Part shown: positions 2,071-9,651 of the stretch, one piece after another | How the letters are laid out: the number at the start of each line of letters is the position of its first letter | Numbering within the stretch: position 1 is the stretch's first letter | Source: Parasedimentitalea psychrophila | GTDB lineage: Bacteria > Pseudomonadota > Alphaproteobacteria > Rhodobacterales > Rhodobacteraceae | Direction: 5' to 3' | DNA: 64,000 bases | Assembly: GCF_030285785.1 (NCBI RefSeq) | Contig: NZ_CP127247.1 | Location: 3,619,501 to 3,683,500 of the forward strand | Notes under the pieces: model-generated | What the model was told of the DNA's origin: nothing | The model's database searches: none | The model's input: only the letters and a program-made list of their open reading frames with translations | Made by a program: the position numbers and the translations under genes

Positions 2071-2113
2071 ATTCTACGACCGCCCCCTGTTAAAAATGGG
2101 GGGATTACCGTCA

Positions 2114-3259
2114 GGTGAATGGGATCATGCCTTACGCGCTGCTATCTTACGCGTCAGGAATAGACGCTATCCCCTCTTTTGGGCGGCACGGGGCGATCTG
2201 AGGGGGCGCGGAAAAGAACTATGTGAAAGCCGAAAGGGCTTAATAGTCCCAATATCGGACGCGGATACCTTCTTTGTGAAGCTAGTAGAACAGGTGGAAA
2301 CGCTGGCCCAAAGTAAACGACAAAACCCCGTGGGGGTGGATATGTTGGTAAGCCGTGCAAAGCGATATTTGGCTAAGCCTGAGCACCGCATCCAACTATC
2401 TGATTTAATTTCTGATGAAGTGGAATGTATCACTGAGCGGCTTGATCAAGATGATATGGGTACACGCGGGAATATGACGCCAGAGGAGTTTCAACGGCGT
2501 ATAGCTGTCTATGAAGGCGCGACGGAAGGTTTGTCAAAGGTCTGTGGGCTTGTTGGACGTTGGGGGGATCAGGAAAATATTGAGCAAGTAATAGAGGGAA
2601 TAACTGCGCTGGTGGACCATGCCGAAAGTGAGCGGAGCGGCCTTCGTAGCTTTCTTGAGGTTCGAGGATATCCAGCCGTTTTAGCTTATCAGGGTGCAGC
2701 ACTAGGGTTGATGAAGTCATCTAATTGGCAGGGATTTAGGAATCTCCTTTTGTCAGAAGTCGATACAGGTAGGCCACAGCCGGAATCTATGTTTAGTGCC
2801 GTTTCACCTATGCAATGGAAGGGTGGGGACCGTGACAGGTGGAATAACTACTATGGAACTGGGCAGAACCTATTCGTCCCGATGATAGATAGGCTGCACG
2901 ACGAGATATTCGCAAGCTGGGGCAAGTCCTTCATGTCATCGATGGGTGGCTTTACAACCGCATTCCTATTGTCTGAAATGTTGACGGCATTTTTTCATTG
3001 TGAGGGCATGGACAAGGAAGAGTTTAAGCGACGTTCGGTTGACGCTCAAGAACGCAACAATGGGTTCGTCTGGATGCCTATTGGTCGCGCTTGTTGGGAC
3101 AGGACGTATCAGGAGCGGGTGCTGCCTAAGTTTGAAAATGAGAATTTCAAAAAAGAGTTGCTAAATGCAGGTTTTTTGAAGGGAGAAGCAGGGTACTTAG
3201 ACTTAGCGGTGAAAAATTATACCGCGTGCGTCGAGAAAAGCCGTTGGTGGTATAGGTAA
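2114..3259 (+). pseudogene. SIR2-family protein, C-terminal part (gene split by IS)
   Basis: The reading frame continues the SIR2 protein directly after the IS (G-E-W-D-H-A-L, completing the end of the SIR2 domain). About 380 more codons without a frameshift run to the stop at 3259. The C-terminal region beyond the SIR2 fold matches nothing I can name. It is rich in charged helices and ends WWYR. No second defence gene (HerA, Argonaute, ThsB-like) adjoins it. Since both halves are open, precise IS excision would restore the gene; as it stands it is a disrupted gene. Confidence 0.8.
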
Positions 3260-3997: not shown

Positions 3998-4786
3998 GTG
4001 GGACTAGTTTGGCGCATATTAGCTATTGTTGGTCTGGCCAATTTTACAGTTCTGTTCATCTTCGTAGCGCTTGCTACGATGCAATTCGACGCTTTGCTGT
4101 CAGGCCTCATTCGCGAACGACTGGAAGTGATCGCCAGCAGGGCGCGAGTTCCCTTTGCTTCGGTTGTTGAATTGGGTCTGCCATTTTCCACAGTGCGAAA
4201 CGGGCGTGCTGTTCTTGAGGCGTCCAGACAAACCGATCCGGCGATTATTGAAATGTCTATTTTTCAACTAGATGGTAAAGTCTCCCACTCAACCGCAAAA
4301 TCTAACCATATGGTTCCTCCTGAACACTGGATGTCAGCGCCACGTACAGGTCCTGATCTAAATCTGTTTCACCTTGAAACCAAGTCGGCCTTTATTGTCG
4401 GCGCAGATATTGGTGAGACCGGCGATCCCTCCGGCGTACTTGTCATCGTATACTCCAAGCGCCAGGCTCTCGATCAAGTTCGGGCGATGGCAGCCAAACT
4501 GGCCTTTGTTGCAGGTGTGATCATGGTGGCCACACTGGTGGTCGGGGCAATTGCATTGCGGTTTGCGTTGATGGAGCACCAAAGAGTGTTTCACGGAATC
4601 CTGAAGACTTTCGACCGTTTTGAAAGAGCTTTTTGGCGGGGCTCTAGGACGGGCCGAAAACCAGAAAATGTCAAGGGTTTGGGATTTGAAACTGATCGTT
4701 TCTGGGACTTGCTCTGGCAATCTGAGCGCGAATACGAAGCGCGCAAAAAACAGACGCCAAACATGCAAAAAGATACGAACGCATGA
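3998..4786 (+). CDS. two-TM membrane protein with extracytoplasmic sensor-like domain
   Basis: A 262-residue protein with one transmembrane helix at about residues 5-27 and a second at about 168-188. Between them lies an extracytoplasmic domain of about 140 residues of the double-helix/sheet type seen in sensors, and a charged cytoplasmic tail follows. There is no kinase, cyclase or chemoreceptor domain, so it looks like a stand-alone sensor or accessory subunit. The GTG at 3998 follows AAGGGGAG at good spacing. It overlaps the next gene by ATGA (4783-4786), indicating translational coupling with the MFS protein. The N-terminal half of that protein has the same topology, so the two probably act together. 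No family name could be assigned with confidence. Confidence 0.7.
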   Translation: MGLVWRILAIVGLANFTVLFIFVALATMQFDALLSGLIRERLEVIASRARVPFASVVELGLPFSTVRNGRAVLEASRQTDPAIIEMSIFQLDGKVSHSTAKSNHMVPPEHWMSAPRTGPDLNLFHLETKSAFIVGADIGETGDPSGVLVIVYSKRQALDQVRAMAAKLAFVAGVIMVATLVVGAIALRFALMEHQRVFHGILKTFDRFERAFWRGSRTGRKPENVKGLGFETDRFWDLLWQSEREYEARKKQTPNMQKDTNA

Positions 4787-6711
4787 GTGCTGCCCTGCAA
4801 CCTGGGCGTCTGGCGGCACGGCGTGTCGTGCTATGGACTGCTGCGATTGTTGCTTTGTCGCTGATCGTTATGGCTTGGGCGTCAGTTAGGGCCTTCGAAG
4901 CGTCAATTGCTCCGGAAATGGAAAAGCGCACGCAGTTGATTGGCAGCACGGTTCGCGAAGAAATTCAGCGTGCACTTGATTTTGGTGTTCCACTTGAGGC
5001 GATTGGCGGGGCGAGTAAATATATCAACAGGATTTTACATGATTTTCCAGAAATTGAGCGAGTGACCCTGTTATCAGTCAACGACGAGATCATCGCTTCC
5101 TCATCAAGACACGGCGAAGAAGCAACCGCGCGACCGGACAGAAATCAAGTTTCACTTCCTATGCTTAGGCGAAACACAATAGTAGGTGAATTACGTCTGG
5201 AGACCGACCCGAAATTTGTCAGTACTCGGCTGCGCGGAGTCATGCTGGATATTCTGGTTTTCGGGCTGGTGGCTATTTTACTGGCGTTTGAATTGGTCAT
5301 CTTGGTGTCAGCCACAGCGCTTGGAAAACCACTGGATCGGGTATTTCACTTGCTAGAAGAACAAGAAAGTGGAGTTTTTAGCCACGTCATCCCACCAACC
5401 GAAGCAGGCGACCTGCGTCGTGTTGCACGACGCTTGTCCGATCGCGCGGTCGATCTGGCCGGACGTGTCGGTATCAGCAAGCGGCTTTCGGCGCTGCCTC
5501 AAGCTTATTTCGCCGATATCCGGTTGCCGATTTTCATTTTCTCCACCGCAACTGAAATCAGTGGCGCCTTCTTGCCGCTATATGCACGCGATCTGGACGC
5601 CCCTGAATGGATGGCACCAGAAATGGCGGCTACTGCGCCACTTGTAGCCTATCTGATCGCAATGGCGGTAGCAGCGCCGTTGGGTGGGAAGATCGCACAG
5701 CGTTTCAGCCCGCGGCGCCTATTCCTTGCGGCGATTCCACTGACTGCAATCGCTATGATTGGTGTCGGGATGGGGCAGTCGGTTATTGCCATTTCTTTTT
5801 GGCATGGGGCCATGGCGCTGGTTTATGCTTTTGCTACCATCGCATGTCAGGAATATGCGATCAGAGCAGCGCCGAAATCAGAAATTGCACAGGCAATAGG
5901 AGGGTATCTGTTCGTTATCCTCGGTGGTGCCTTTTGTGGGGCCGCTCTCGGTGGAGTTCTGGCTGACAGGCTTGGACCAAGTAACACCTTCTTTGTCGGT
6001 GCGGGGCTGGTTGTTATATCTGGCCTTATTGGGGCGAGAATTGTTTCGGCGACGATCGGTAAAGCCCCAAAAAGGGAGGAACAGCCTGTTGCAAAACCCG
6101 CCTCAGCCCGCACGGTCTATCGCGACCCAAGATTTATCGCACTCGTTTTTGGTGTTTCCGTGCCGACAAACATGGGGATGTCGGTTTTCATCTGGTATCT
6201 GACACCTGTTGTTTTATCCGCACAAGGCGTCAGTATAGCCGATATTGGGCGGGTGGTAATGCTCTACTATCTTGCGCAGGTGCTGATTGGTCCAACCGTA
6301 GCAAGGCTGGCTGATGGGCGCGTTGGCAACGTACCCATGTTGATCATAGGGATCACGATTTCGGGGCTGTCCATTACCTCGCTCACTATTTGGGGGGGAT
6401 TTTGGCCGATGGTAGTGGTTGTTACGCTCTTTGGCTTTGGTCACGCGATGTGTGACGCGACGCAATACGCGCAGGCTATTCGCATCGGCGAGGAAAGTGG
6501 ACTGGTTGGTGGAGCGGACGCCGCATTGGGAGGGTTGCGTCTGATTGAGCGGCTCGCAGCCATTGCAGGTTTGGTGGCAAGCGTCGTTCTGGTCGAACGT
6601 TTCGGTTATGACACGACGATTGGTGTCCTCGGTGTGACAATGCTGTCAGGTGCGATTTTAATGCTACTCTGCAGTAGGAGGTCAGACAAAATGCAATCTT
6701 ATACCGGTTAA
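4783..6711 (+). CDS. MFS transporter fused to N-terminal sensor/HAMP-like module
   Basis: A 642-residue inner-membrane protein with an unusual architecture. TM1 is at about 15-36, an extracytoplasmic sensor-like domain at about 37-150, TM2 at about 152-178 and a HAMP-like linker at about 179-232. A full 12-helix major facilitator domain then runs from about 245 to 630. Conventional MFS proteins are about 400 residues and lack the front module. MFS hallmarks include the loop GGKIAQRFSPRR and its second-half counterpart ARLADGRVG. Substrate is unknown. It is coupled to the upstream two-TM protein (4-bp overlap) and followed after 64 bp by a periplasmic binding protein, so a ligand-gated or binding-protein-assisted transporter is a reasonable inference. 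Confidence 0.8.
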   Translation: MSAALQPGRLAARRVVLWTAAIVALSLIVMAWASVRAFEASIAPEMEKRTQLIGSTVREEIQRALDFGVPLEAIGGASKYINRILHDFPEIERVTLLSVNDEIIASSSRHGEEATARPDRNQVSLPMLRRNTIVGELRLETDPKFVSTRLRGVMLDILVFGLVAILLAFELVILVSATALGKPLDRVFHLLEEQESGVFSHVIPPTEAGDLRRVARRLSDRAVDLAGRVGISKRLSALPQAYFADIRLPIFIFSTATEISGAFLPLYARDLDAPEWMAPEMAATAPLVAYLIAMAVAAPLGGKIAQRFSPRRLFLAAIPLTAIAMIGVGMGQSVIAISFWHGAMALVYAFATIACQEYAIRAAPKSEIAQAIGGYLFVILGGAFCGAALGGVLADRLGPSNTFFVGAGLVVISGLIGARIVSATIGKAPKREEQPVAKPASARTVYRDPRFIALVFGVSVPTNMGMSVFIWYLTPVVLSAQGVSIADIGRVVMLYYLAQVLIGPTVARLADGRVGNVPMLIIGITISGLSITSLTIWGGFWPMVVVVTLFGFGHAMCDATQYAQAIRIGEESGLVGGADAALGGLRLIERLAAIAGLVASVVLVERFGYDTTIGVLGVTMLSGAILMLLCSRRSDKMQSYTG

Positions 6712-6775
6712 ACAACATTTTGCAGATAAAATAGAAAACGGGTTTGTTGTACAAGCCACGGATTGGGGGAATAGG

Positions 6776-7768
6776 GTGCTGCGTATTTGTCTCTTCACCG
6801 CGACGCTTTTTTGGGTAAGCGTTCAAAGCGCCATTTCAGAAGAAAAACTGATCTACGGTGTGTTCTGGGAAGGCTGTGAACATGGCTGCCAAGGCTTTAT
6901 TGATGAAATAAAGAAGAGTGGATTTCCAGTACAGTTGGAGCTACGCGACGCCGAACAAAACAAAGCTAATCTGCCCAAGTTCATCAGAGAAGCGCGCGAG
7001 TTAGACGCCGATCTCGTTCTGACTTACGGCACCAGCGTTACCTTGGGTATGGCAGGTCGCTATGACGATCCAGATGCGGCGGATCGGGTCACCAGTCGGC
7101 CATTGGTGTTCATGTATGTCTCTGATCCGATCGGATCAAATATAGTGAAAGGCTTTGACACTAGCGGACGCCCGAATATTGCCGGGACATACAATCGTGT
7201 GCCCGAGGCAGCTAATATCAAGACAATTCGCACGATCCTCCCCGAATTTACCCACCTAGGCATGATTTACAACTTTAACGAACGGAATTCGGCACTAAAA
7301 GTCGAAGAAATGGACAGACTCTCTGCAGATATGGGGTTTAAACTGACGGCACTCGAAATTGACCCTGGGAATTCCGGTGTGCCTGATCCAGCGCTGATTT
7401 CCGAACGAGTGACGGAGTTGGCAGCCGCTGGCGTCGATTTCATCTATCTTGGGTCCAGTTCTTTCCTGCGGATAAACGGCGCTGCCTTTACCAAGTCCGC
7501 AGTTGAGAATGGAATACCAATTTTAAGCCCCTACGAAGAGGTCGTTCGCGAAAATGACGCGTTGATCTCCATCGCAGCGCGGGCAGCTGATGTTGGTGAA
7601 ATCGCAGCACAACAGGCATTGCGAATACTGCGCGACGGCAAATCCCCCGGGGATTTGTCCATCGCACGCGTCACCGATTTTGCTTATGTTGTGAACATGG
7701 AAGTTGCGAAGCGACTGAATCTTTTCCCACCTATCGAGTTTTTGCAAATAGCTGAAACGGTAAAGTAA
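6776..7768 (+). CDS. periplasmic substrate-binding protein (ABC_sub_bind/TrpX-like)
   Basis: A 330-residue protein with a signal peptide (about residues 1-21, ending SAISEE) and a two-lobe periplasmic binding fold of the ABC_sub_bind type (COG2984, which includes TrpX). Typical pieces are ADLVLTYGTSVTLGMAG, PLVFMYVSDPIGSNIV, AGTYNRVPEAANIKTI and GIPILSPYEEVV. Known relatives bind aromatic amino acids or similar ligands and work with ABC permeases. No permease or ATPase is adjacent; the partner here appears to be the sensor-MFS protein directly upstream. The start is GTG 6776. Ligand identity is unknown. Confidence 0.8.
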   Translation: MLRICLFTATLFWVSVQSAISEEKLIYGVFWEGCEHGCQGFIDEIKKSGFPVQLELRDAEQNKANLPKFIREARELDADLVLTYGTSVTLGMAGRYDDPDAADRVTSRPLVFMYVSDPIGSNIVKGFDTSGRPNIAGTYNRVPEAANIKTIRTILPEFTHLGMIYNFNERNSALKVEEMDRLSADMGFKLTALEIDPGNSGVPDPALISERVTELAAAGVDFIYLGSSSFLRINGAAFTKSAVENGIPILSPYEEVVRENDALISIAARAADVGEIAAQQALRILRDGKSPGDLSIARVTDFAYVVNMEVAKRLNLFPPIEFLQIAETVK

Positions 7769-8186: not shown

Positions 8187-8454
8187 TTAGGCTGCTAATC
8201 TCATTGGTGCCTTTTTGGTCTCATAAGCCTCCTTCGGCGTCAATATCCCATGGGTCGAATGGGGGCGTTCGACGTTGTAATAAGCGAGCCATTTTTCGAT
8301 CCCGAGACGGGCATCTGAGCCTGTTTCAAATGCGTTCAGGTAGATGCATTCATATTTGAGGGATCGCCAAAGCCGTTCGATCATCCGGTTGTCGATCCAG
8401 CGACCTTTGCCATCCATGGAGATCTTGACGTCGGCATCTTTCAGCGCCTGTATC
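8187..8454 (-). pseudogene. truncated IS3-family OrfB, C-terminal fragment
   Basis: About 89 codons of an IS3-family transposase C-terminus. It carries the last catalytic Glu region (ISMDGKGRWIDNRMIERLWR), LKYECIYL, and the terminal motif YYNVERPHSTHGILTPKEAY. The upstream part is lost at the edge of IS copy 2 (8455). This is a different element from both IS copy 2 and the one at 9652. Confidence 0.85.
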
Positions 8455-8493
8455 GGTAATCCCCCCATTTTTAACAGGGGGCGGTCGTAGAAT

Positions 8494-9321
8494 TTACGCG
8501 GCCATTTCCAGTTTCATTGCGGGTGTGATGCCGCCGAGGCCCATATTCGGGCGGTCATTATTGTAAGTCCATAGCCATTGTGTGGCAAAGTCCTGTGCCT
8601 CCTCTATGTTTTCGATGATATGTTGGTCCAACCATTCATGCCTGACGGTGCGATTATAGCGCTCGATGTAAGCGTTCTGCTGCGGCTTTCCGGGTTGAAT
8701 GTACTGGATGATAATACCTTGTTTCTCAGCCCATTCCAGCAGCTTACCACTGATGTACTCCGGCCCATTATCGACCCGAATGGTTCCTGGTTTCCCACGC
8801 CATTCAATGATCCGATTAAGGCTGCGAATAACCCGTTCGGCTGGCAAAGAAAAATCGACCTCGATGCCCAAACCCTCGCGGTTAAAATCATCCAGCACGT
8901 TCAAGAGCCGAAACGCCCGACCATCCCCGAGGCGATCCGCCATGAAGTCCATCGACCAGGTCATGTTCGGGGCGTCCGGCACTGCCAGCGCATCGGGTTT
9001 GTCCCGCTTTAACCGTTTCCGAGGTTTGATCCGCAAGTTCAGTTCCAGTTCGCAGTAAATCCGGTAAACCCTTTTGTGGTTCCACGAATGACCTTGCACG
9101 TTACGTAGATGCAGGAAACATAGCCCAAACCCCCAAGTCTTCCGTGCGGCCGTCAGCCCAACCAGCAGATCGGCAATCTCTTCGTTCTCATCGCTCAAGA
9201 GCGGGCTGTAACGATAGCACGTCTCACTGACATCAAACGTGCGGCAGGCCAGCGCAATGCTGATACCGTGGCGCGCCACCGCTTTCTCGGCCAGACCCCG
9301 TCGTAAGGCTGGCCGGATCAC
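8494..9321 (-). CDS. IS3-family transposase OrfB (copy 2)
   Basis: 275 residues, matching the OrfB of copies 1 and 3 except for Lys to Glu near the C-terminus (MKLEMAA instead of MKLKMAA). All DDE residues are present, and the GTG start overlaps orfA. Confidence 0.92.
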
Positions 9322-9581
9322 TTTTTTCCCAGGGCTTCCTTCAGTAATTCTGCTTGCATGCTCATCTCGGCATACATCTTTTTCAGCCGCCGGTTCTCGT
9401 CTTCAAGCGCCTTCATTTGGCTGATCATCGACGCGTCCATACCACCGTATTTTGATCGCCATTTGTAGAACGACGCGTTGCTCATCCCGTGCTCGCGGCA
9501 CAGCTCCGTTACAGGCACACCGCCTTCGGCTTGGCGTAGGATCGCAAGAATTTGGGGTTCGCTATATCTCGTCATCTTCAT
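9318..9581 (-). CDS. IS3-family transposase OrfA (copy 2)
   Basis: 87-residue helix-turn-helix plus coiled-coil OrfA, same as copy 1, with the A6G slippery run at its 3' end. The preferred start is the inner ATG following GAGGAG. Confidence 0.9.
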
Positions 9582-9651
9582 CAAAATCTCCTCATGCATT
9601 CTGCCGAGAAAATTCTACTTCCACATCCCCTTAGTTTCGGGGGGGATTACC

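Follow-up and report, generated by a model that had tools for sequence, protein, structure and literature searches.

A conserved trio of Cache sensor protein, sensor-MFS fusion and periplasmic binding protein as a candidate ligand-gated receptor-carrier

Can a periplasmic binding protein work together with a protein of the major facilitator superfamily (MFS)? The available text of PMC5812351 (2018) recognizes three families of substrate-binding protein (SBP)-dependent transporters: ABC, TRAP and TTT. The question is raised by a 64,000-nucleotide stretch of the Parasedimentitalea psychrophila genome (contig NZ_CP127247.1, positions 3,619,501 to 3,683,500; hereafter the window), in which three adjacent genes encode a two-transmembrane (2-TM) sensor protein (P1), a second sensor fused to an MFS body (P2), and a periplasmic binding protein (P3). 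These three genes are a real and widely conserved unit, and the trio probably links a chemical outside the cell to a response at the membrane. On balance, it seems somewhat likely that the products form one receptor-carrier complex, in which the binding protein and the Cache/HAMP pair of P1 and P2 control the MFS body in a ligand-gated manner. The readings weighed below overlap, and their likelihoods are not meant to sum to one.

All three open reading frames (ORFs) are uninterrupted on the forward strand over the coordinates in Table 1, as the original prediction had placed them. The four-base ATGA overlap of P1 and P2, on which it based their translational coupling, is likewise present. P3 is 330 amino acids long, starts with GTG 64 nt past the P2 stop codon, and has a signal-peptide-like N terminus.

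Table 1. The gene trio and its parts, in positions of the window
Feature	Position	Strand	Basis or remarks
P1: 2-TM sensor subunit with one Cache-like extracytoplasmic domain (~4178-4456)	3998..4786	+	262 amino acids, GTG start
ATGA overlap of P1 stop and P2 start	4783..4786	+	P2 ATG 4783-4785, P1 TGA 4784-4786; the sequence itself
P2: sensor-MFS fusion protein	4783..6711	+	642 amino acids; Pfam, conserved family
P2 sensor half: TM, Cache-like domain, TM (residues ~1-178)	4783..5316	+	hhalign to P1 family; approximate boundaries from L089 model
P2 putative HAMP-like two-helix linker (residues ~179-236)	5317..5490	+	helix pattern in L089 model, and position
P2 MFS domain, 12 TM (residues ~245-632)	5515..6678	+	
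P3: ABC_sub_bind (PF04392) periplasmic binding protein with signal peptide	6776..7768	+	PF04392 E 3.7e-23; TrpX model NF041285; solved relatives 6hni, 3lft, 3lkv

The unit extends well beyond this genome. When named genomes were scanned for six binding proteins, by binding-protein sequence only, 120 relatives emerged, and the best 80 of these 120 (L044-L123) were analyzed; all locus counts out of 80 refer to this set. Their record labels comprise 48 Alpha-, 23 Gamma- and 3 Betaproteobacteria, 2 Myxococcia and 4 others; several are metagenome-assembled genomes (MAGs), with binning taken as deposited. A sensor-MFS gene lies directly upstream of the binding-protein gene on the same strand in 74 of the 80 loci, so the synteny anticipated by the original prediction is present. 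In two others (L055 and L104), the MFS and binding-protein genes are convergent. P1 is fused to P2 in 29 loci and separate in 36, is lost to the contig start in eight, and is unscored in four, of which three have a P1-like match (L095, L106, L107) and one a P1-sized ORF (L123). In L080, sensor-MFS and binding protein occupy a single frame (1-2841) with a signal-peptide-like stretch between them, the MFS being partial at the contig start. Because of the P1-P2 fusions and this one MFS-binding-protein frame, the parts can be expected to act together. L080 comes from a MAG, and its single frame could be an assembly error.

The closest named relative among the best 80 of the 120 is Ruegeria arenilitoris (L044), with 65% identity in P2 and 71% in P3. 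Of 198 sampled genomes from the family to which the window belongs, 29 contain at least one P2 match at E 0.001, mostly ordinary MFS proteins. Eleven clear sensor-MFS relatives (E 4e-106 to 2e-14) occur in ten other family genomes, and a P3 homologue adjoins all 11. Moreover, distances co-vary over 69 loci (r 0.86 for P1-P2, 0.82 for P2-P3 and 0.81 for P1-P3), while the maximum r in 500 permutations was 0.13.

P3 belongs to the ABC_sub_bind family, as originally proposed, with 82.6 bits against a PF04392 cut-off of 25.9; its score against the TrpX equivalog NF041285 (94.8 bits) lies below the cut-off of 390. It is the only PF04392 protein in the genome, just as P2 is the only protein of its type. 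No permease or ATPase gene was found among the surrounding ORFs, in agreement with the original prediction, and PF06541, the TrpY-type permease, has no match genome-wide. DctQM or TctAB subunits are also absent from the trio: the Pfam match of P2 is MFS_1 alone, and P1 has no credible one.

The partner of the binding protein differs among more distant relatives. In a phylum sample of 299 genomes, searched with a profile (A2) built from 11 MFS-linked binding proteins, matches occurred in 48 genomes. Six places reached at least 279 bits; the five that are not the query genome itself scored 279-387 bits, and the other listed matches 115.3 bits or less. All five (L154-L158) adjoin a sensor-MFS gene. 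Among 15 chosen lower-scoring loci, 11 lie beside an ABC ATPase and a multi-TM permease, four beside neither, and none beside this MFS. Thus, close relatives of the binding protein were not found to pair with an ABC permease, which would have spoken against the original prediction. In a quick tree covering 75 binding proteins (alternate members of L044-L123, the three without an MFS, and other sets), the 11 ABC-linked proteins and two orphans share one branch (Shimodaira-Hasegawa-like approximate likelihood ratio 92), with L155, L172 and L173 unplaced. With regard to the ligand, solved members of the P3 family bind aromatic amino acids, according to the available text of PMC6816091. In an alignment to CD0873, with residue numbers from the same text and an inferred numbering offset, P3 has Tyr253 at the selectivity position Glu-263 and Ala270 in place of Tyr-279; a ligand is not predictable from this comparison.

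The sensor halves of P1 and P2 are related to each other. P1 has no credible Pfam match (best DUF5936, E 0.92) and no recognized cytoplasmic output domain; its structure model contains a WalK-like Cache domain, that is, the Cache fold between two TM segments by which a sensor is identified. Alignment of the P1 family with the P2 N-terminal family by hhalign gives a probability of 96.7 (E 4.5e-10), which supports the proposed resemblance of P1 to the N-terminal 2-TM sensor of P2 and indicates, at the level of sequence profiles, that the two halves share a common ancestry. Over the 46 rows of alignment A5, in which P2 conservation was counted, D156 is present in 98% and E170 in 93%. A fused P1-P2 relative, L089, is modeled with two Cache-like domains and an MFS (predicted local distance difference test score 86, predicted template modeling score 0.86). 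No HisKA or HATPase output domain was found by Pfam in P1 or P2. The sensor halves look like those of kinases minus the kinase, and in P2 the MFS takes the output position.

The MFS half is canonical, with a match to Pfam MFS_1 (E 4e-27, best stretch residues 251-471) and a 12-TM MFS fold. Its nearest profile matches are the drug/amine:H+ antiporters NorA, VMAT, EmrB and MdfA. NCBIfam models for H+ antiporters and drug exporters match P2 weakly, and because all of these matches lie far under the curated cut-offs, the direction of substrate movement is unreadable from profiles. R247, R586 and R590 are invariant over the 46 rows, and E589 is missing from one. The core glycines of G-x3-G-x3-GG are also conserved; the full pattern G-x3-G-P-x2-GG in TM5 is presumed here to be antiporter motif C, and its proline is found in none of the 46 rows of A5 and in five of the 12 rows of a further alignment (A1).

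Some relatives of the trio are encoded within type VI secretion system (T6SS) loci. In Vibrio furnissii (L113), the trio precedes VgrG, DUF6931, PAAR, one unnamed gene, TssA, Hcp, VipA and VipB; L116, L120 and L122 share this order, and L154 agrees with it over its 11-kb stretch, without a PAAR match. T6SS genes lie close by on the opposite strand in L106, and VgrG lies near L107. In a Rhodobacteraceae genome (L034/L194), the trio is found between the VgrG-DUF6931-PAAR and TssA-Hcp-VipA-VipB genes of a T6SS locus, and in L190, P1, P2, P3 and vgrG successively overlap by four bases.

This linkage holds across two genus samples. The larger, of 61 genomes, is taken as Vibrio because L210 and V. 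furnissii L113 have the same VgrG (100% identity). Here P2-like matches occur in 17 genomes, and each of the 17 has a tssJ on the contig and strand of the match, 2.7-3.1 kb downstream in 14 and 18.2-18.6 kb downstream in three. tssJ is present in 37 genomes, 20 of them without the module, and the module is present in none of the 24 genomes without tssJ. In the second genus (48 genomes), P2 and DUF6931 occur in the same seven genomes, the other 41 having neither, and VipA occurs in 21; P2 lies 3.2-3.3 kb from DUF6931 and 6.1-7.2 kb from VipA in all seven. Fisher p values are 3e-5 for Vibrio and tssJ, 1e-8 for the second genus and DUF6931, and 0.002 for the second genus and VipA, although these genomes are related and the values overstate independence.

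Eleven of the 17 Vibrio loci were checked gene by gene (L156, L157, L206-L214). They have the order ClpV, sensor-MFS, binding protein, SBP_bac_3, FHA, TssJ, TssK, TssL, or are of the vgrG type. L206-L209 have MFS scores of 206-232 bits and binding-protein scores of 65-75 bits; no P1 was recognized there, and the ~1.3 kb that separates ClpV from P2 is unassigned. As these T6SS-linked proteins score so low, a clean score gap defining MFS-linked binding proteins was rejected. The SBP_bac_3 gene, of family-3 type, stands between the module and the T6SS FHA gene in L156 (4480-5208, E 8e-5), L206-L209, L213 and L214. Neither an MFS nor a substrate-binding protein is mentioned in the available main text of three papers on Vibrio T6SS (PMC9765294, PMC9545535, PMC3628861).

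Other relatives are associated with partner-switching signaling genes, whose counterparts are presumably BtrU/BtrW and RsbU/RsbW. In L041, HATPase_c_2, the P1-like part and P2 form one ORF; in L042 and L039, HATPase_c_2 precedes the P1-like part in an ORF separate from P2. SpoIIE genes adjoin L039, L041, L042, L107 and L158 by Pfam and lie near L038 and L155 by BLAST. A GNAT-like gene of ~210-285 amino acids recurs near SpoIIE-type relatives (L037, L038, L039, L041, L155, L158). In L158 (1-9206), export genes of the FlhB and FliR types, either flagellar or type III, lie on the other side of the module from SpoIIE.

In the proposed mechanism, P3 would bind a small molecule in the periplasm, and loaded P3 would dock on the paired, related Cache domains, one each from P1 and P2. 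The 2-TM/HAMP-like segments would relay the signal to the MFS body of P2, whose state it would set, and the carrier would thereby be gated by an outside ligand, as a transceptor. In relatives, the same complex may also inform the T6SS or a partner-switching phosphatase pathway, while the window copy has no recognizable output besides the MFS.

Several observations speak against this mechanism. PF00672 (HAMP) has no match in P2; the 2-TM sensor of the original prediction is upheld by its homology to P1, while its HAMP-like linker is suggested by position and by the helix pattern of the model, and HAMP matches in Pfam are seen in relatives only and are weak (L037, E 0.1). Most main-clade copies, including that of the window, form an operon without a recognized signaling gene, and a fourth gene shared by most of the 80 loci was not found. 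In addition, the MFS is missing (no MFS above 100 bits) in three of the 80, namely L119 with a lone binding protein, L049, which is truncated beside a transposase gene, and L047 with an MFS fragment. Motif A is only partly kept, position 306 being acidic (D or E) in 17 of 46 rows, and the transport competence of P2 is therefore uncertain.

In the strict form of the original prediction, P3 would hand its ligand to the MFS for uptake, and the trio would be an SBP-dependent importer of a class beside ABC, TRAP and TTT. P3 does come from a family of transport binding proteins with aromatic amino acids bound in its solved members, it is kept to its MFS neighbor in a genome without a TrpY permease, and L080 has an in-frame MFS-P3 ORF. 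However, this account is made unlikely by the antiporter kinship of the MFS half and its retained motif C core (even with the proline mostly missing), by the failure to find a common catabolic neighbor, and by the T6SS and SpoIIE linkage. Because of that H+ antiporter kinship and the T6SS and SpoIIE/HATPase_c_2 ties of relatives, a receptor role is at least as likely as uptake. The broader claim that periplasmic recognition may be coupled to a secondary carrier is partly supported, by the conserved unit and its fusions. MFS kinship, the motif C-like core and the sensor architecture would also suit a receptor-gated exporter, in which an outside compound, either noxious or a signal, would be detected by P3 and the Cache pair, which would then turn on H+-antiport efflux; yet the profile matches lie far under the drug-pump cut-offs with direction unreadable, no resistance or biosynthesis gene recurs beside the module among the loci inspected, and this reading too is improbable.

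A different possibility is that the MFS no longer transports and serves as a membrane transducer or scaffold, signaling to T6SS, SpoIIE/HATPase or other partners. The fixed T6SS linkage in two genera, the HATPase_c_2 and SpoIIE linkage and the partial loss of motif A favor this pure receptor, but it remains doubtful in view of MFS core positions that are nearly invariant and stand-alone copies that lack a recognized output partner. The T6SS and SpoIIE links speak for the receptor reading, and the conserved core positions and stand-alone copies for the carrier reading. That three unrelated genes are held together by mobility is hardly credible: the window copy does lie between two identical inverted insertion sequence (IS) copies, but with at least 17 near-identical IS copies in the genome this position is uninformative, and the synteny, with the same order over many families and genome contexts, P1-P2 fusions and co-varying distances, already contradicts it.

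Each part of the trio comes from a known family, and it is the combination for which no described system was found in the literature covered. P3 shares its family, and probably its fold, with TrpX (3lft), CD0873 (6hni) and VC_1101 (3lkv) of TrpXYZ-type ABC uptake, but is partnered by a sensor-MFS instead of a permease and ATPase. TRAP and TTT likewise combine a binding protein with an ATPase-free membrane carrier; in the trio that carrier is an MFS rather than DctQM or TctAB, and sensor domains are added. WalK-like two-TM Cache/HAMP sensor kinases differ in that P1 has no kinase or other output and P2 has an MFS in the output place. P2 shares the 12-TM fold of DHA1-type MFS H+ antiporters such as NorA, VMAT and MdfA, but has a fused N-terminal 2-TM Cache sensor and obligate sensor and binding-protein neighbors. 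With partner-switching systems, the likeness is confined to relatives whose P1-like part carries HATPase_c_2 and that have SpoIIE downstream; both are missing from the window copy. TagQRST/PpkA is a signal input of T6SS, also runs from periplasm to cytoplasm and is encoded in T6SS loci; by description it resembles the trio, whose input would instead be a binding protein, a Cache pair and an MFS.

A full-text literature search, with subscription papers mostly outside it and the T6SS link outside its scope, found no SBP-MFS or sensor-MFS system. The trio may, as a tentative suggestion, represent a previously undescribed kind of receptor, in which an MFS is controlled by a Cache/HAMP pair together with a binding protein, acting as a chemical trigger, either standing alone, as in the window, or within T6SS loci, where it would time the action of the weapon. 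Should the complex exist, it would be another class of transporter that depends on a binding protein, or else a chemoreceptor of a new kind with an MFS body as output, and either outcome would be unexpected for specialists in transport and signaling. If the T6SS-linked relatives act in this way, they would be a concrete candidate for small-molecule sensing by some marine T6SSs, an open question.

The genes around the module vary. A shared catabolic or resistance neighbor was considered and rejected, none being common to most of the 80 loci. Ten downstream neighbors that were scanned include GGDEF-EAL, a cyclase, a TPP enzyme, TIR-DctQ, DUF1194 and NMT1_3, and four have no match. The ORF downstream of the binding protein in L068 (1991-3115) combines TIR_2 and DctQ domains. 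A second ABC_sub_bind copy follows the first in L057 (10091-11092) and L066 (10058-11053), and in L098 (10060-13026) and L123 (9975-13126) a second binding protein, NMT1_3, and a secretin lie directly downstream (the L123 secretin by BLAST).

The copy in the window stands alone, as do those in most of the 80 loci, because there is no T6SS seed match in the window, the VipA genes of the genome are on contig C3, and its single SpoIIE gene is at C1:1652290, away from the trio; location in a T6SS locus is thus a feature of relatives. The cassette is flanked at 913-2110 and 8454-9651 by two identical IS copies of 1198 nt, inverted relative to each other. Among the matches listed, the genome has at least 17 near-complete, near-identical copies of this IS, the two flanking ones included. 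Since the IS is so numerous, its inverted geometry is not evidence, and a composite transposon was rejected. The IS at 913-2110 apparently splits a SIR2_2-domain gene (259-933, 2096-3259), of which the downstream piece has no Pfam match.

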